A stretch of DNA of 64,000 nt from Mucilaginibacter rubeus (GTDB lineage: Bacteria > Bacteroidota > Bacteroidia > Sphingobacteriales > Sphingobacteriaceae): NCBI RefSeq assembly GCF_014643835.1, contig NZ_BMKD01000001.1, forward strand, positions 124,001 to 188,000. Direction: 5' to 3'. The notes beneath the pieces were generated by a model. It saw only the letters and a list, made by a program, of their open reading frames with translations, was not told where the DNA came from and did not search any database. The translations under genes were made by a program, and so were the position numbers. This document shows, one piece after another, positions 3,826 through 13,962 of this stretch; within the stretch, counting starts at the first letter, position 1, and each line of letters begins with the position of its first letter.

Positions 3826-5196
3826 TTAGTTTGATAACTCCGCAAAGTATTTGTGAAACAGCGGAATGGTTTCTATGCCTTTATAATAATTGTAAATATC
3901 ATATTTCTCATTAGGCGAGTGCAGGGCATCGCTATCAAGCCCGAAACCCATCAATACAGTTTTTAAACCAAGCTCGGCTTCAAACAAAGCAACAATTGGG
4001 ATACTACCCCCACCCCGGGTTGGGATAGGCTCTTTACCAAATGATTCGGCAATGGCTTTTTGAGCAGCACGGTAAGCCACACTGTCGGTTGGGGTTACAG
4101 CCGGTTCGCCGCCATGATGCGGGGTTACCTTAACCTTAACATAGGGAGGTGCAATACTTAAAAAATGGTCGGTAAAGAGTTTGGTTATAGCTTCTGACGT
4201 TTGGTTGGGCACTAAACGCATAGAGATTTTGGCATTGGCTTTTGAAGGCAACACTGTTTTGGCGCCTTCGCCTATATAGCCGCCCCAAATGCCGTTTAGC
4301 TCAAGAGTAGGACGGGTGCCTGTACGTTCAAAAGTACTGTAGCCCTTTTCGCCCCAAAGCTCGGCTACATCAAGGTCTTGTTTGTATCCGGCTTCATCAT
4401 AAGGCGCTCTGTTAAGGGCTTTGCGTTCTGCTTCGCTAAGCGGTACCACATCGTTATAAAAACCGGGAATGGTGATATGATTGTTTTCATCATGCAGACT
4501 GGCAATCATCTGGGCCAGGATGGTGATAGGGTTAGCTACAGCGCCGCCGTAAACACCCGAATGCAGGTCGCGGTTAGGGCCGGTTACTTCTACCTCAAGA
4601 TAGGAAAGGCCGCGTAAACCTGTTTCAAGTGAAGGATGTTCCATGCTGATCATCGAAGTATCAGAGATCAGCACCACATCGGCTTTCAACTTTTCCTTGT
4701 TGGCTTTCACAAAGATGCCCAGGTTGGATGAACCCACTTCTTCTTCGCCCTCAATCATAAACTTAATATTGCAAGGAAGTGTACCGGTTTGCATCATCAG
4801 CTCAAAGGCTTTTACATGCATGTAAAACTGTCCTTTATCATCGCAGGCACCGCGGGCGTATATTTTTCCATCCCGAACAGTTGGTTCAAAAGGAGGTGTT
4901 TTCCACAGTTCCAACGGATCTGGCGGTTGTACATCGTAGTGCCCATAAACCAATACGGTAGGTTTGGAAGCATCTATGATCTTTTCGCCGTATACAATAG
5001 GGTAGCCGGCGGTTTGGCATATTTCAACATTATCAGCTCCGGCATCGCGGAGCTTTGCTGCCACATAATCGGCAGTTTTTAATACTTCAGGTTTGTATTT
5101 TGGATCGGCACTAACCGATGCTAAACGTAACAGGTCAAATAACTCATCAAGTAAACGCTGTTTGTTTTGCTCAACATATTGCTTTATGTGCTGCAT
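3826..5196 (-). CDS. M20-family dipeptidase (metallopeptidase)
   Basis: A 456-residue cytoplasmic zinc peptidase of the M20 group, cleaving dipeptides or short peptides. Di-metal-site residues are visible: His86 and Asp88 (YGHYDVQP), bridging Asp119 (ACDDKG), the Glu151/Glu152 pair (EGEEEVGS), Asp179 and His426 (ALHSPNE). The inserted dimerisation (lid) domain spans about 195-345 and contains the DLHSGVYGG motif. Length is normal for M20 dipeptidases. It lies downstream of the KRDLGSAD peptide cluster on the same strand, separated by 122 bp, so read-through is possible. A role in cleaving those peptides would be speculation; peptide nutrition or murein dipeptide turnover fits equally. Confidence 0.92.
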   Translation of the reverse strand: MQHIKQYVEQNKQRLLDELFDLLRLASVSADPKYKPEVLKTADYVAAKLRDAGADNVEICQTAGYPIVYGEKIIDASKPTVLVYGHYDVQPPDPLELWKTPPFEPTVRDGKIYARGACDDKGQFYMHVKAFELMMQTGTLPCNIKFMIEGEEEVGSSNLGIFVKANKEKLKADVVLISDTSMISMEHPSLETGLRGLSYLEVEVTGPNRDLHSGVYGGAVANPITILAQMIASLHDENNHITIPGFYNDVVPLSEAERKALNRAPYDEAGYKQDLDVAELWGEKGYSTFERTGTRPTLELNGIWGGYIGEGAKTVLPSKANAKISMRLVPNQTSEAITKLFTDHFLSIAPPYVKVKVTPHHGGEPAVTPTDSVAYRAAQKAIAESFGKEPIPTRGGGSIPIVALFEAELGLKTVLMGFGLDSDALHSPNEKYDIYNYYKGIETIPLFHKYFAELSN

Positions 5197-5318
5197 AATA
5201 TTATTGTTTGCAGCAAATATAGTTAGTTCATTGGTTCACTCGTTCATTAGTTTATTGGTGAATGAAATTAACCGCGAAAACCAGTAATTCACCAATTCAA
5301 TAATTCCCAAATTGATTA

Positions 5319-5486
5319 TTAATCTGCCGAACCCAGATCTGATTTTGGTGTATTGACAGCCTTAGTGGCAAACTCAACTTTCTCGACTTTTATTTTAGCT
5401 TCTTGTTTAGGCGCTTTATGAGTTAATGATACAGCGGTAAGGCCTGTAGCTATTAAAACCGCTGCTGCAATGATGAATTTCTTCAT
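5319..5486 (-). CDS. Small exported protein ending in KSDLGSAD (55 aa), member of KRDLGSAD family
   Basis: A 55-residue protein with an N-terminal signal peptide (MKKFIIAAAVLIATGLTAVS), a charged middle segment (residues 24-45) and the C-terminus PKSDLGSAD directly before the stop. This tail matches the repeat of the adjacent 333-residue protein, with Arg changed to Ser. Its codons for LGSAD differ from those in the neighbouring genes, so the match is kept at protein level. It is the last of five same-strand genes with the tail, 60 bases after the multi-copy gene. I know no named family. Export is inferred from the signal peptide; a role as peptide precursor is a hypothesis. Confidence 0.75.
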   Translation of the reverse strand: MKKFIIAAAVLIATGLTAVSLTHKAPKQEAKIKVEKVEFATKAVNTPKSDLGSAD

Positions 5487-5546
5487 GTTGTCAACTATTC
5501 AAATTTTAGTTTATAACATATGATTTTATAATAGAAGAGTTGTTGA

Positions 5547-6548
5547 TTATGCCATAAAATCAGCAGAGCCTAAATCTCTTTTTGGACCAGGACCAGACAT
5601 AGCAAAATCAGCAGAGCCTAAATCTCTTTTTGGACCAGGACCAGACATAGCGAAATCAGCAGAACCTAAGTCTCTTTTTGGACCAGGACCAGACATAGCA
5701 AAATCAGCAGAGCCTAAATCTCTTTTTGGACCAGGACCAGACATAGCAAAATCAGCAGAGCCTAAATCTCTTTTTGGACCAGGGCCAGACATAGCAAAAT
5801 CAGCAGAGCCTAAATCTCTTTTTGGACCAGGACCAGACATAGCAAAATCAGCAGAGCCTAAATCTCTTTTTGGACCAGGACCAGACATAGCAAAATCAGC
5901 AGAACCTAAATCTCTTTTTGGACCAGGGCCAGACATAGCGAAGTCAGCAGAACCTAAGTCGCGTTTTGGCTGAGGACCGAAAGCGAAATCAGCAGAACCA
6001 AGATCACGTTTTGGCTGAGGACCGAAGGCGAAATCAGCAGAACCTAAGTCGCGTTTTGGCTGAGGACCGAAAGCGAAATCAGCAGAACCAAGATCACGTT
6101 TTGGTTGAGGACCGAAGGCGAAATCAGCAGAACCTAAGTCGCGTTTTGGCTGAGGACCGAAGGCGAAATCAGCAGAACCAAGATCACGTTTTGGCTGAGG
6201 GCCACAGGCGAAATCAGCGGAACCAAGATCACGTTTTGGTTGAGGACCGAAAGCAAAATCAGCAGAACCTAAGTCGCGTTTTGGCTGAGGACCGAAGGCG
6301 AAATCAGCAGAACCTAAGTCACGTTTTGGCTGAGGACCGAAAGCAAAATCAGCAGAACCAAGATCACGTTTTGGCTGAGGACCACGGGCAAAATCAGCGG
6401 AACCAAGATCTCGTTTTGGTTGAGGGCCACGAGCATCAGCAGAACCTAAGTCACGTTTTGGTTGAGGGCCGTTAGCGGCATTTGCTAATGTGGTGGCCGA
6501 TAATATGGTGCTTAATGCTAAAGTTGCTATTAGTGTTAAATTTTTCAT
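5547..6548 (-). CDS. Exported multi-copy repeat protein: 20 tandem KRDLGSAD units (333 aa)
   Basis: A signal peptide of about 25 residues (MKNLTLIATLALSTILSATT, then LANAAN) is followed only by repeats. Residues 27-204 hold 12 units of the form GPQPKRDLGSADFAF, with small linker variants (AR, FAR, FAC). Residues 205-333 hold 8 units of the form MSGPGPKRDLGSADFA, the last ending FMA. The core KRDLGSAD is invariant in all 20 copies, whereas the two linker residues vary. There is a single Cys, in the FAC linker. No globular domain, membrane anchor or sorting signal is visible. The layout, a signal peptide plus many identical short peptides, is that of a multi-copy peptide precursor such as yeast pro-alpha-factor. 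The four flanking genes carry the same peptide once. Function is unproven. Confidence 0.85.
   Translation of the reverse strand: MKNLTLIATLALSTILSATTLANAANGPQPKRDLGSADARGPQPKRDLGSADFARGPQPKRDLGSADFAFGPQPKRDLGSADFAFGPQPKRDLGSADFAFGPQPKRDLGSADFACGPQPKRDLGSADFAFGPQPKRDLGSADFAFGPQPKRDLGSADFAFGPQPKRDLGSADFAFGPQPKRDLGSADFAFGPQPKRDLGSADFAMSGPGPKRDLGSADFAMSGPGPKRDLGSADFAMSGPGPKRDLGSADFAMSGPGPKRDLGSADFAMSGPGPKRDLGSADFAMSGPGPKRDLGSADFAMSGPGPKRDLGSADFAMSGPGPKRDLGSADFMA
5550..6470. repeat. In-frame tandem repeat: 12 x 45-bp and 8 x 48-bp units
   Basis: The coding repeat falls in two blocks. The block at 5550-5936 has eight nearly identical 48-bp units, pointing to recent expansion. The block at 5937-6470 has twelve units of 45 bp (the first coding unit is 42 bp). 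There, two codon versions of the same peptide alternate (CGTGATCTTGGT and CGCGACTTAGGT for RDLG), making a 90-bp higher-order unit over at least six copies. Copies differ mainly at synonymous positions. Confidence 0.95.
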
Positions 6549-6617
6549 GATGTTTTTAATGTGGGGGTACGTAAATATTTTTTGTTTATTAAATCTCTTG
6601 TTCGTTAATGTCTTTTT

Positions 6618-6770
6618 TTAGTCGGCGCTGCCTAAGTCTCTTTTAAAACCGGTTGTCAGCGAGTTCACTGGTGCAATCACCATTTTGGTTTTGTTTTCAT
6701 TTTTGTTTGTAGCTGATGATAATGCACCTGCACTAAGGGCTACTGTTGCTATGAGGATGAATTTTTTCAT
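6618..6770 (-). CDS. Small exported protein ending in GFKRDLGSAD (50 aa)
   Basis: A 50-residue product with a signal peptide (MKKFILIATVALSAGALSSA), a short polar region (residues 21-38) and the exact C-terminus TTGFKRDLGSAD, then TAA. The tail is spelled AAAAGAGACTTAGGC followed by AGCGCCGAC, different from its neighbours. It lies 69 bases upstream of the multi-copy gene and 35 bases downstream of the next member, all on one strand, so one transcript is likely. No Cys, so no lipidation. Not a family I recognise. Its small size means automated annotation could miss it. Confidence 0.78.
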   Translation of the reverse strand: MKKFILIATVALSAGALSSATNKNENKTKMVIAPVNSLTTGFKRDLGSAD

Positions 6771-6805
6771 GTTGTTTTATGTTTTATTGATCTTGAATAG
6801 ATAAA

Positions 6806-6949
6806 TCAGTCCGCACTTCCCAGGTCTCTTTTGTAACCGGTTGCGAATAAGTGAAGGTTAGCAAACTCAGCTTTTGGTCTTTCCTTTTTGCAGGATGAAA
6901 TGACCCCGGTGAACAGAATTGCTAAAGCGATGGTGATTATCTTTTTCAT
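6806..6949 (-). CDS. Small lipoprotein-like protein ending in GYKRDLGSAD (47 aa)
   Basis: This 47-residue product has a signal sequence ending in a lipobox, TGVISSC with Cys20, so it is probably cleaved by signal peptidase II and lipidated, unlike the other members. The mature part is only 28 residues: a charged KKERPKAEFAN segment, then ATGYKRDLGSAD directly before TGA. The tail uses AAAAGAGACCTGGGA and AGTGCGGAC. Gene spacing is 50 bases from the upstream member and 35 from the downstream one. In Gram-positive bacteria some peptide pheromones are cut from lipoprotein signal peptides, but here the conserved part is the C-terminus. Confidence 0.78.
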   Translation of the reverse strand: MKKIITIALAILFTGVISSCKKERPKAEFANLHLFATGYKRDLGSAD

Positions 6950-6999
6950 GATCGTGTTATATTATCGATGTGGAACTTCCTGTATGATTTAATTGGATT

Positions 7000-7161
7000 T
7001 CAGTCGGCGCTTCCCAGGTCGCGTTTAAAACCTGCCGGCGTTTTGTTGAAATTGACAGCTGTTGGCTGTACGTCTTTTTTTGCCGATGATGACAAAACTG
7101 ATGACGATGAGAGCACTCCGGCGCCTATGGTAAGGAGTACAAAAAACACTGCTTTTTTCAT
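7000..7161 (-). CDS. Small exported protein ending in GFKRDLGSAD (53 aa), first gene of the cluster
   Basis: A 53-residue protein with a hydrophobic signal (MKKAVFFVLLTIGAGVLSSS), a serine-rich stretch, a short linker (KKDVQPTAVNFNKTPA) and the terminal GFKRDLGSAD followed by TGA. The tail is encoded AAACGCGACCTGGGA and AGCGCCGAC. It is the promoter-proximal member of the five-gene set, lying next to the long AT-rich divergent region shared with the TPR sensor gene. Only A/T-rich DNA precedes the ATG, as usual for Bacteroidota. Family unknown to me; secretion is inferred from the signal peptide. Confidence 0.78.
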   Translation of the reverse strand: MKKAVFFVLLTIGAGVLSSSSVLSSSAKKDVQPTAVNFNKTPAGFKRDLGSAD

Positions 7162-7728
7162 ATTGATTAATTATTGTATTTAATATTCTATTTTTTAAAT
7201 TAATACGATATATAATATTTATTAAAATCCGTTAAGCTTATTTAAAGCTTATCACAAATATTTTAAAAGTTTGATTTTACTCTCTGTTTTTTAAAAACTC
7301 TGTTTTTCTAAAATTTTAAAAAAGATTCTCTGTTTCGTATTTTTATACTGTTAATTATGGCGTTAAATTACTAATTTTAAATGTAATATCATCTGGATTA
7401 ATTACCGGTATGGTATACAATTTATTGCACGATTTTCACATTATTTCATTTATTTGATATACAAACTGTAATTATATTGTAAATCTCAGGATATATGTTG
7501 CAATATTATTGTAATTGCCTGCAATTTATTTGAAGTGATATTGTATAGGGTGTTTTTTTATTTAATATATTGTTTTTCAGATATTTAACAATGCAAATAT
7601 AAATATGTTTTTAATAGGAGTAAAAAACATATGAAAATAATTTTCCACAATGTTTTTTATTCTTAACATTAAATATAATTCAGCATTATTTTATAACTTT
7701 CACCCCAACAGAACGTAGAAGTGTTTCA
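7162..7728. promoter_or_regulatory. AT-rich divergent control region between the KRDLGSAD genes and the TPR sensor
   Basis: No gene is visible in these 567 bases, which are much richer in A+T than the neighbouring coding DNA. The stretch contains three direct copies of CTCTGTTT (7282, 7298, 7328), a 7-bp inverted repeat TAAGCTT/AAGCTTA with a 5-base loop (7233-7251), and several TTGTAAT/TTGCAAT-like words at 7460-7530. It must carry the start signals for both the peptide genes and the divergent sensor gene. I found no full-match TTTG/TAnnTTTG promoter, so the exact promoters are not assigned. Confidence 0.45.
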
Positions 7729-9159
7729 ATGAAAAAAATCGGCACATTTATATTATTCTTTTTATTATCGCTGTCGGTATACGCGAATGATATAATTGAT
7801 GTTGCTGCAAAAGACACTAATGAGGTAATAAGCCTGAATACCAGCGCTTATTCAAACAGGCTGACAAATCCGGAGCAAACCGTTGAAGATGCCACCAGGG
7901 CGCTGAAGCTATCTACCAAACTCAATTATATTAATGGTATTGCAGAAGCTTACCGTGTTATAGGTATTGGTAAATACTACCTTGATCAGCCTGAAAAGGC
8001 TATTGAAAATTATCTGAACTCCCTTTCATATTTTACCCGCAACAATAACCTGAGGGGCGAAGCCAAGGTTTATAATAATATCGGCATCCTGTTTCGTGAC
8101 CACGACTACGAACGCTCCCTTACCTATCTTAACCGATCGCTGGAGATAGCACAAAAAATAAATGATACCAAGTTGGTGGGCTCATTGTATTTAAATATAG
8201 GCAACGTTTACACGCGTAAAAATAACCTGTATATGGCGCTTAAGTTTTATGATAAAAGCTTTCCTATATTTCAGAAACTGAGCGATTCGGTAAACCTGAT
8301 CCAGTGTTTGCAAAATCGTGGTGTTATTTATTTTAAACTTAAAGATTACGATAAGGCCCTGGGTTTACTACTGGAGGCTAATACCGGTGCAAAAGCACGT
8401 GACCTGAACGAGTCAGTAGCCAGTGTTGACCTTACGCTGGCAGCGCTTTACATGACCAAAGGCGATTTTAAAAATGCGGAAAAGATGGTACGGGAGGGGA
8501 CCGCTTATACACAATTAGTAAAGGACCCTAAGCTTGACTACGATTACAAATACACCACATACGAACTGGAGTACAACAAAAAGAATTTTGCCCGTGCGGT
8601 AAATTTACTAAGGGAAATATATACCCAGGATAGTGTTACCTATAAAACCAACGTATCGGCGCAAATGAACCTGGTTGAGGCCAAACGCAGGCAGGAAGAG
8701 CAACTGAAAGAAAACGAAAGGATTGCAGAACGGCAGGCTTACGACCGGTCGAAATTTTGGGCGGTAACGGTAGTTGCCGGTTTGATGCTTGTGGTAATTG
8801 GTTTGCTGATCAGCAATGTAAAACGTAAAGCCAAAACCAATGCACAGCTTACATTGCTAAACGGTGAGGTATCCCGGCAAAAAGATAACCTTGATAGGAT
8901 CAATCATCATCTTGAAGAGATCATTGATGAACGTACCAAGGATCTGCAGTTAAAAAATAAAAAGCTTTCTGAGCATTCGTCATACCTGTCACATCAAATC
9001 AGGGGGCCTATAGCTACGTTACGCGGTTTGATCAACCTTGAAAAAGAAGGCCTGGTTGACCAGGCCGAATGTTTGGATATGATGGACAAATGTGTATCTG
9101 AAATTGATGAAAAGATCATCGAAATGAGCGACATGCTACATAACCCGCCAAGAGTTTAA
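7729..9159 (+). CDS. Membrane TPR protein with histidine-kinase phosphoacceptor box but no ATPase domain
   Basis: A 476-residue protein laid out as signal peptide (1-20), about six tetratricopeptide repeats (roughly 36-320, e.g. AKVYNNIGILFRD and GSLYLNIGNVYTRK), one membrane segment (about 343-363), a coiled coil, and a phosphoacceptor-helix motif SHQIRGPIATLRGL with His422. It stops about 54 residues later, so the ATP-binding domain of a histidine kinase is absent. The 24 bases to the next, convergent gene leave no room for a frameshifted remnant. The TPR part should be periplasmic. TPR domains bind peptides in Gram-positive pheromone receptors, and this gene is divergent from the exported KRDLGSAD peptide genes, so a receptor role is an attractive inference but unproven. 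Confidence 0.85.
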   Translation: MKKIGTFILFFLLSLSVYANDIIDVAAKDTNEVISLNTSAYSNRLTNPEQTVEDATRALKLSTKLNYINGIAEAYRVIGIGKYYLDQPEKAIENYLNSLSYFTRNNNLRGEAKVYNNIGILFRDHDYERSLTYLNRSLEIAQKINDTKLVGSLYLNIGNVYTRKNNLYMALKFYDKSFPIFQKLSDSVNLIQCLQNRGVIYFKLKDYDKALGLLLEANTGAKARDLNESVASVDLTLAALYMTKGDFKNAEKMVREGTAYTQLVKDPKLDYDYKYTTYELEYNKKNFARAVNLLREIYTQDSVTYKTNVSAQMNLVEAKRRQEEQLKENERIAERQAYDRSKFWAVTVVAGLMLVVIGLLISNVKRKAKTNAQLTLLNGEVSRQKDNLDRINHHLEEIIDERTKDLQLKNKKLSEHSSYLSHQIRGPIATLRGLINLEKEGLVDQAECLDMMDKCVSEIDEKIIEMSDMLHNPPRV

Positions 9160-9183
9160 CCGGCGCCCGGTCCTCCTTCAGGT

Positions 9184-9483
9184 TTAACTAAAGTGTACAG
9201 GCAGGCTGGAGTGGATCTGTGCTTCTATAAGCCCCAGGTAAATACAATACCACGATATCATTTGTAAAACCAGCAGCTGCCTGTGTTTATTATAGCCCTG
9301 TGTTTCAAAAGCCAGTGTTGTTTCATCGCCGGCAGTTACAAAAAACCTTACTTCGCCTTTACTCGGTTTAAAACGTGCCCGCAGCAAATCAAACGCCTTA
9401 ACTTTTAGCTTACTTTTAGGATCATGGATGATACCGTCGCTCGAGGTTTCGTTTTTTGATATGGAAATAAGATAATTTGACAT
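9184..9483 (-). CDS. Hypothetical protein (99 aa)
   Basis: A 99-residue product starting MSNYLISISKNETSSDGI, predicted cytoplasmic. I selected the internal ATG at 9483 because the upstream extension is short and unlike a conserved start. The middle (about 35-70) has alternating strands (KVKAFDLLRARF, EVRFFVTAGDETTLAF), suggesting a small beta-rich fold. The C-terminal third is aromatic and hydrophobic (LLVLQMISWYCIYLGL). I do not recognise a family. It converges on the TPR sensor gene with 24 bases between the stops. Confidence 0.55.
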   Translation of the reverse strand: MSNYLISISKNETSSDGIIHDPKSKLKVKAFDLLRARFKPSKGEVRFFVTAGDETTLAFETQGYNKHRQLLVLQMISWYCIYLGLIEAQIHSSLPVHFS

Positions 9484-9717: not shown

Positions 9718-10086
9718 TTAGATAGCCACACTGGCCTTATTGCGCAGCTCTTCATAAAGTAATATTACCTTACGTTGTAAACTGGCTATTTCTGATTCGC
9801 GGTCTATCAATTTTTTCTGTGCAAGGCTTAAACTCGACGGCTTCATATCAGTTTCGTCAGTATCAAGGGCCAGTATGTTTACCACGTTTACATCAAAAAT
9901 ATTGGCAATTTGTTCAAGACGCGAGAGGTTTATATCGGTTACTCCTGTTTCAATTTTTGAAAACGCAGGAATAGAGATGCCCAAACGGTTAGCCACATCT
10001 TCCTGGCTCCATCCATGCTGATGGCGTAATGCCCGGATGTTTTTACCAACGGATTTGTTTGTTTGTTTTTTAATAGTATCGCTCAT
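9718..10086 (-). CDS. XRE-family transcriptional regulator with C-terminal coiled coil
   Basis: A 122-residue DNA-binding protein. Residues 13-70 form a helix-turn-helix of the Cro/CI (XRE) type, with WSQEDVANRLGISIPAFSKI covering the recognition region and ETGVTDINLSRLEQIANIF completing the fold. After a linker, residues 88-117 form a probable coiled coil (REIDxxL-like heptads, ending YEELRNKASVAI), typical of a dimerisation tail in Bacteroidota XRE proteins. A 12-bp inverted repeat lies 55-105 bp upstream (10141-10191) and could be its own operator. Targets are unknown. Confidence 0.85.
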   Translation of the reverse strand: MSDTIKKQTNKSVGKNIRALRHQHGWSQEDVANRLGISIPAFSKIETGVTDINLSRLEQIANIFDVNVVNILALDTDETDMKPSSLSLAQKKLIDRESEIASLQRKVILLYEELRNKASVAI

Positions 10087-13854: not shown

Positions 13855-13917
13855 CTCTAATCTCTAATCTCTAATCTCTAATCTCTAATCTCTAATCTCT
13901 AATCTCTAATCTCTAAT
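13855..13917. repeat. Heptanucleotide microsatellite (CTCTAAT)9
   Basis: Nine perfect head-to-tail copies of CTCTAAT occupy 63 bases in the gap between the terminator and the end of the M1 peptidase gene, followed by a partial CTC. No reading frame crosses it. The rest of 13568-13962 is AT-rich with no gene that I can support. Confidence 0.95.
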
Positions 13918-13962
13918 CTCCTCACAAATCCGAAATCGAAATTCCCAAATCCCAAATCAAAA

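Follow-up and report, generated by a model that had tools for sequence, protein, structure and literature searches.

Known peptide-receptor systems and the locus in Mucilaginibacter rubeus

The closest described systems to the locus treated here are those of the RRNPPA family of Bacillota (Rap-Phr, NprR, PlcR, and AimR), in which a tetratricopeptide repeat (TPR) protein is encoded beside Sec-exported precursors that carry the peptide at their C-terminus. Multi-copy precursors and several neighboring precursor genes are reported to occur in this family, with up to six copies in one propeptide (PMC9765709); a further source is PMC11343458. The locus in question lies in 64,000 nucleotides of Mucilaginibacter rubeus (contig NZ_BMKD01000001.1, positions 124,001 to 188,000), a stretch that was analyzed as a whole and is called the window below. 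It consists of a cluster of genes for exported proteins that share a short tail, KRDLGSAD or a close variant, and of a divergent gene for a TPR protein with a dimerization and histidine phosphotransfer (DHp) domain. We put the probability at roughly 0.6 that the tails are ligands, probably pheromone-like, of this adjacent TPR-DHp sensor, and that these genes form a self-contained peptide-signal module.

The module differs from the RRNPPA systems in several respects. It has up to 31 identical copies per locus and more precursor genes. Its TPR protein has a predicted signal peptide of its own, a transmembrane (TM) helix, and a DHp domain but no helix-turn-helix (HTH), its peptide would need no re-import, and its hosts are Gram-negative. 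In RRNPPA the receptor is cytoplasmic and the peptide is re-imported by an oligopeptide permease, which does not agree with the topology predicted for the module. The RNPP_C domain scores 17.4 bits against a cut-off of 26.5, and there is no sequence relation beyond the TPRs. The best explanation is that the module would work like Rap-Phr without being a member of the family, as a periplasmic, membrane-bound, Gram-negative system.

A second group to compare consists of two-component sensors with peptide ligands and of TPR histidine kinases of Bacteroidota, such as FimS; shared features are a signal peptide, TPRs, a TM helix, and a DHp domain, and FimS is the best NCBIfam match of the sensor, at 67.8 bits far below the cut-off of 600 bits. 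As in sensor histidine kinases, the DHp domain contains the phospho-acceptor His, but the HATPase domain is absent. Precursors of the yeast alpha-factor type consist of a signal peptide followed by tandem, short, species-specific peptides after basic residues; the arrangement is alike, although there is no homology and the receptor belongs to another class. We know of no RRNPP-like peptide-receptor pair in Bacteroidota, and none was listed in the literature searches. No mention of KRDLGSAD was found in a literature search that left most subscription papers and preprints outside, and nothing on the module itself appeared in searches judged by the 9 to 20 top-ranked titles and the starts of abstracts. 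The module looks like an undescribed bacterial peptide signal.

The precursor genes and their tails

The cluster comprises five minus-strand open reading frames (ORFs) for exported proteins at positions 5319-7161, with gaps of 50, 35, 69, and 60 bases (Table 1); signal peptides were called by a crude hydrophobicity rule, not SignalP. A preliminary description of the window had reported five clustered genes, spaced 35-69 bases, with 24 copies of the octapeptide, and these coordinates and counts are confirmed: three genes end in KRDLGSAD, one ends in KSDLGSAD, and the array ORF holds 20 KRDLGSAD. The spacers of the array are FAFGPQP (eight times), FAMSGPGP (eight times), and four others found once each, the last of which is the end, FMA. 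Nine DNA spellings are used across the 20 array copies, and the four single-copy tails differ pairwise by 4 to 11 of 24 bases, so that the octapeptide codons do differ among genes, as had been claimed. It had also been stated that the middle segments of the small precursors share no clear similarity, and their identity is at most 24% in an ungapped comparison. Outside the cluster, no further [KR]xDLGx[AG]D was found in the six frames of the window. A 169-aa ORF antisense to the array (5966-6475, plus strand) is an expected by-product of the repeat. An assignment of the array to the adhesin Lcl was rejected, at 14.2 of 500 bits.

Table 1. Features of the locus, with positions in the window unless another locus is named
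Feature	Position	Strand	Description
Small exported precursor 1	7000..7161	-	53 aa, C-terminus KRDLGSAD; 11 orthologues found (18 loci), 11/11 end KRDLGSAD
Small exported precursor 2	6806..6949	-	47 aa, lipobox-like signal (ISSC), C-terminus KRDLGSAD; orthologue in 18/18 loci, KRDLGSAD in 16
Small exported precursor 3	6618..6770	-	50 aa, C-terminus KRDLGSAD; 10 orthologues found (18 loci), 10/10 end KRDLGSAD
Array precursor	5547..6548	-	333 aa; signal peptide, then exactly 20 KRDLGSAD with short spacers
Last precursor	5319..5486	-	55 aa, C-terminus KSDLGSAD; 9 orthologues found (18 loci): KSDLGSAD, KKDLGSAD, or KHDLGSAD
Conserved promoter-like block AAAAACATATTTATATTTGC	7593..7612	-	Reads toward the precursors; nearly unchanged across 18 aligned loci
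Candidate receptor	7729..9159	+	476 aa: signal peptide, TPR superhelix, TM helix, coiled coil, DHp (HisKA), no ATPase domain
HTH protein with array-end-like extension DKKDIGNGD	L358:1458-1868	-	Genome G138, likely deletion scar

Selection on the tail was read from 18 loci, in which four orthologue groups yielded 11, 18, 10, and 9 orthologues. Among the tail codons, 2 of 32 vary in amino acid and 21 vary silently; the corresponding numbers are 59 and 58 of 85 codons for the middle segments and 41 and 49 of 88 for the signal peptides. This codon pattern indicates that the tail is under purifying selection, which supports the earlier proposal of a recognized peptide held at the protein level. The opposite case, a free tail beside a conserved remainder, was looked for and is absent within the KRDLGSAD clade.

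A strict degenerate form of the pattern occurs in 18 of 149 genomes of the genus (G001 being the one nearest to the window), with up to 31 occurrences in one genome, and the reversed pattern, used as a control, has no match in any of the 149. One of these matches (G045) is a lone one elsewhere in its genome, and the locus-borne pattern is therefore present in 17 of 149. KRDLGSAD is one species group's form of a variable tail. Other species carry, for instance, TKKDIGTAD, NKKDVGTAD, DKNNLATAD, DKKDLGNGD, NKQDLGQAD, DKRDLGSYD, or DKGNLGTWD, and arrays in relatives have other lengths and other spellings. Thus, the clustering of the precursor genes recognized in the preliminary description is supported, and its view of KRDLGSAD as the constant tail holds within one species group, whereas most relatives that were read carry a different tail in the same place.

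The variation follows a pattern. A tail set of 329 genes ending in Asp was collected, with at least one gene in 83 of 101 units and two or more in 65 units. Position -8 is K or R in 266 of these genes, -6 is D, E, or N in 281, -5 is L, I, or V in 289, and -2 is A or W in 298, the terminal Asp being a selection criterion and not a result. The last eight residues have an identity of 0.78 within genomes and 0.49 between them (none of 300 shuffles reaches the within-genome value), versus 0.27 and 0.10 for the preceding 12 residues. Part of the likeness of tails within genomes stems from recent gene copies. Even so, of 574 gene pairs from one genome whose preceding segments are dissimilar, 82 (in 23 genomes) have the same last eight residues, and these 82 pairs show a mean of 3.4 silent differences per 24 bases. 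Identical tails with silent differences and dissimilar preceding segments speak against gene conversion alone and in favor of one reader shared by the tails. Nine sister-genus genomes have a distinct last precursor, and its -2 residue agrees with that of the other tails in eight of them, including Y in G202 and F in G221; the exception is G160 (M against W).

These observations also bear on repeat drift, that is, on a functionless array produced by slippage and tails spread by gene conversion. Such drift would account for arrays that are homogeneous within a genome and variable in length, but it is hardly credible given the 82 identical tails in dissimilar contexts, with their silent differences, and the codons of the orthologues. 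Together with the reversed-pattern control, the same two results exclude chance or a repeat artifact.

A lipobox-like signal is present in 99 of the 329 tail genes, and at least one such gene is found in 60 of 83 loci. This, and the fact that sensor and precursors would share one envelope, is what an envelope-trafficking monitor would predict. In that case, the precursors would be resident lipoproteins or periplasmic proteins whose tails report export or lipoprotein sorting to the inner-membrane TPR protein of the same cell, with the same partner but no talk between cells; NlpE-Cpx and RcsF-Rcs are analogues. Internal copies would then need no processing. However, a monitor of this kind leaves unexplained why tails differ between species and agree within a genome, and why a locus may hold up to 34 motif copies (median 19, with 31 of the 34 identical, among 59 window and named loci with more than 3.5 kb upstream), and we consider it unlikely, if the most serious of the competing explanations.

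The candidate receptor

The likely partner of the precursors, overlooked in the preliminary description, is the TPR-DHp protein encoded at 7729-9159, whose gene is divergent from the cluster and separated from it by 567 bases. Pfam finds TPR_12 (3e-24) and HisKA (7e-6; 26.4 bits, just under the cut-off of 26.9) in the 476-aa protein, with no match to a HATPase domain. With the start trimmed by homology, all 108 loci encode a protein of 474-493 aa that ends soon after the DHp domain, and the lack of an ATPase domain is therefore a constant trait. The DHp residues H422, R425, and P427 are invariant in 12 aligned family members and H422 is invariant in 52 of 52 genus sequences, in which the C-terminal half holds most of the invariant columns. 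No response regulator adjoins the sensor in the window.

An AlphaFold2 model built from 52 sequences (mean pLDDT 83.1, pTM 0.59) has a run of TPR-type helix pairs between roughly residues 48 and 283, for the most part with pLDDT 83-96, followed by a long helix that includes the TM segment and then by the DHp hairpin. By prediction, from the signal-like helix and the TM segment that follows the TPRs, the TPRs would lie outside the inner membrane. The top Foldseek matches are the peptide-binding TPR proteins LGN (E 4e-10) and KLC1 (about 4e-7), with RapF at rank 48 (4.7e-6); since TPR folds match one another widely, this result gives a class, not a function. Residues N116, N117, N156, and N196 are near-invariant among the 52 sequences, with Asn placed in helix A of TPR2-4. 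Asn is common at this position in other TPRs too. In all RRNPP members, the peptide backbone is reported to be contacted by a conserved Asn (PMC6458997). The near-invariant Asn residues would be compatible with peptide binding in the TPR groove.

TPR domains often serve assembly, and the tails of the small genes are C-terminal. Both points would suit a binding or sorting tag that is read by a protease, sorting machine, or scaffold, the TPR protein being an assembly platform and not a sensor. Nevertheless, the middle segments attached to the tails are short and dissimilar, which leaves little cargo to sort, and the sensor retains the invariant His, Arg, and Pro of the DHp domain. A tag of this kind is, in our estimate, improbable. 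The preliminary description had left the choice among a signal, a processed peptide, and a binding tag; this choice is now narrowed, though not settled.

Distribution of the module

The sensor is present in 138 of 149 genomes of the genus (1e-60), in 156 of 399 family-level genomes (1e-50), which represent 11 of 25 genera, and in 19 of 295 genomes of a class-level sample (1e-45), 13 of them outside the family. Three sets of loci were then read for precursors. The genus set consists of the 18 stretches at strict-pattern matches, minus the stray match of G045 (L040), which leaves 17, and of 60 regions upstream of the sensor. The second set contains 20 sister-genus regions. The third contains 80 named loci from Mucilaginibacter or unclassified Bacteroidetes bins, obtained with the sensor as query; its species overlap with those of the genus set. 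Only loci with 1.3 kb or more of readable sequence upstream of the sensor were counted. To pass, a locus needed a nine-residue word with a final Asp that recurs in its exported ORFs or, under a weaker rule, an exported ORF with a final Asp.

Small exported proteins with an Asp tail lie beside the sensor in 69 of 69 named loci (11 of the 80 were dropped as too short), in 73 of 76 genus loci (72 by recurrence and one by the weaker rule; one of 77 dropped), and in 18 of 18 sister-genus loci from nine genera (11 by recurrence and seven by the weaker rule; two of 20 dropped). Since sister-genus precursors are near-identical copies, the word that recurs in these loci is frequently something other than the tail; even so, every one of the 18 loci has one or more exported ORFs with a terminal Asp. 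The three genus loci that did not pass (G144, G123, and G013) encode small exported proteins in which a SADGGI- or TGDGG-like stretch lies close to the end.

Other TPR sensors were also seen. In G135, tandem TPR-DHp genes lie away from the usual locus (L366:110-3212) and may encode eavesdropping receptors. Longer TPR sensors of 607-638 aa in four sister-genus genomes show no tail genes under the filter used, which flagged one unrelated 190-aa ORF. For three sensors of 607-622 aa (L368:4144-7076, L370:4852-7726, and L372:4633-7530), the start of the next gene is response-regulator-like (IVDDEEYS).

Joint loss and neighboring genes

Sensor and tail genes are also absent together. In 22 family genomes without a sensor match, the neighboring M20 dipeptidase gene is kept in all 22, and no tail genes were seen upstream of it in the 21 that were readable (one failed the M20 filter), although outside the region read the module could still sit elsewhere in these genomes. 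Three Asp-ended ORFs found there overlap the M20 start or oppose larger ORFs and are unlike any tail. The UvrD-helicase gene, whose copy in the window is UvrD by Pfam (2.7e-88), lies beyond the sensor in 27 of 30 sister-genus loci and 79 of 80 named loci where the module is present, and within the same few kb of M20 in 5 of the 22 sensor-less genomes. The clearest case is G138, where the order is M20, HTH gene, and uvrD, with sensor and peptide genes absent. There, the HTH protein has the C-terminus MAKRDKKDIGNGDFQVA, which resembles the end of an array, while the HTH protein of the window has no such stretch. This suggests a single deletion through the module, with an assembly error as the other possibility.

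The neighbors themselves were rejected as parts of the module: M20 because it is kept in the 22 sensor-less genomes, and the HTH gene (9718-10086) because, although present in 79 of 80 named loci, it is missing from all 30 sister-genus loci, and because it persists in G138. Upstream of M20 in the module-less genome G152, there is a 74-base head-to-tail DNA repeat (L348:861-1474) that yields overlapping, probably non-coding 31-aa ORFs, and a perfect 7-base tandem repeat, CTCTAAT, with 9.4 copies lies at 13855-13920 of the window.

The same neighborhood bears on an antagonistic peptide, with the tail genes as precursors of a bacteriocin or of a ribosomally synthesized and post-translationally modified peptide (RiPP) and the TPR protein in immunity or regulation. 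Exported peptides that are multi-copy and species-specific would fit such a role. However, no RiPP maturation enzyme, dedicated exporter, or toxin family was found among the scanned neighbors (M20 dipeptidase, TPR-DHp, HTH, and UvrD helicase), genes further off being left unscanned; the signals are of the ordinary Sec type, and M20 and UvrD are of a housekeeping type. This makes an antagonistic role very unlikely. A phage or defense system was also rejected, as neither PHROGs nor PADLOC matched the two precursors that were scanned, and their matches were confined to TPR-type and weak holin-like ones in the sensor and HTH-type ones in the HTH gene. An RNA family was rejected as well, with no Rfam match at the gathering threshold in 5000-9300 of the window.

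The control region

In an alignment of 18 loci, the block AAAAACATATTTATATTTGC stands in otherwise drifting, AT-rich DNA. The Bacteroidota -7 consensus is TAnnTTTG, and we take TATATTTG, inside AAAAACATATTTATATTTGC, to fit this box. A promoter at this place would give the transcript a leader of about 400 bases. In 51 of 97 loci, 17 or more positions agree in the best match to the 20-base block, and the 20 sister-genus loci reach no more than 16; on the opposite strand, used as a control, the best match is at most 15. A degenerate form of the block has 59 occurrences in 55 of 149 genus genomes, of which 51 are at the locus, five are elsewhere, and three could not be placed. As 51 of 59 matches are at this locus, a regulon operator was rejected. 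The block looks like the module's own promoter.

Coevolution tests and points against a peptide-receptor pair

The evidence for coevolution of tail and TPR domain is mixed. A branch-wise test on 61 genomes gave a partial correlation between tail and TPR changes, beyond M20 and DHp, of 0.40 with the M20 tree and 0.34 with a concatenated tree, and of 0.36 and 0.31 when the TPR sites were thinned to the number of changes in M20. Given the TPR domain, M20 and DHp yielded -0.06 and 0.13, or -0.07 and 0.06, respectively. For the same 61 genomes, a partial Mantel test gave the tail a weak link to DHp (0.15; 10 of 500 permutations as high) and a value of 0.08 with M20 (72 of 500).

Several results weigh against a peptide-receptor pair. 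In the Mantel test, the correlation of tail and TPR given M20 and DHp is 0.03, with 173 of 500 permutations as high, and no individual TPR site is set apart from the sites of M20. Since the TPR domain evolves faster than the rest of the locus, the branch-wise result may be a clock effect and is counted as suggestive only. Positions in the groove are not clearly more conserved than random ones (357 of 5000 sets as low); they vary less than helices B, but not less than other helix-A positions. Internal array copies are not C-terminal, and a free terminal Asp would require further cuts. Finally, there are sensors without tail genes: the two extra tandem genes of G135 have none in 12 kb (one filter-flagged ORF runs off the end of the region and is not tail-like), and neither do five TPR-DHp-like proteins from outside the family (G482, G652, G554, G457, and G521), within at most 1.5 kb on each side. 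These five belong to the 13 matches outside the family in the class-level sample, and they look full-length with no ATPase domain.

Proposed mechanism and its meaning

If the tails are ligands of the adjacent sensor, a single promoter would drive several small precursors and the tandem-array precursor, and Sec signal peptides, in part lipoprotein signals, would take these across the inner membrane. The common tail, with its basic residue at -8 and terminal Asp, would be displayed whole or released proteolytically as a short peptide; a basic residue followed by seven residues suggests a heptapeptide freed by a trypsin-like cut. Precursors with a lipobox-like signal could remain in the envelope and report locally, and the arrays could provide bulk peptide or a multivalent ligand. 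The TPR groove of the divergent membrane protein, facing the periplasm, would bind the tail. Binding would alter the TM segment, coiled coil, and DHp domain on the inside of the cell and thereby change a phosphorelay, presumably in trans, since the sensor itself lacks an ATPase domain. The DHp domain might receive phosphate from a separate kinase, drain a different pathway, as Rap does through its targets, or act via dimer geometry. Because the tail is species-specific, the signal would probably be read by kin.

More tentatively, and at somewhat less than even odds, the module may represent a family-wide, Gram-negative pherotype class in which a periplasmic TPR receptor reads peptides some seven to nine residues long, an independent parallel to Rap-Phr. 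An ATPase-less DHp domain would then divert or drain a phosphorelay, and multi-gene, multi-copy precursors would serve own-species talk among Sphingobacteria. To our knowledge, periplasmic TPR sensors are common in this phylum and their ligands mostly unknown; for one such sensor, the tails described here are a proposed ligand. Dozens of natural peptide variants, each with a presumed receptor, occur in culturable soil bacteria, and with so many variant-receptor pairs, specificity and coevolution would be directly testable.

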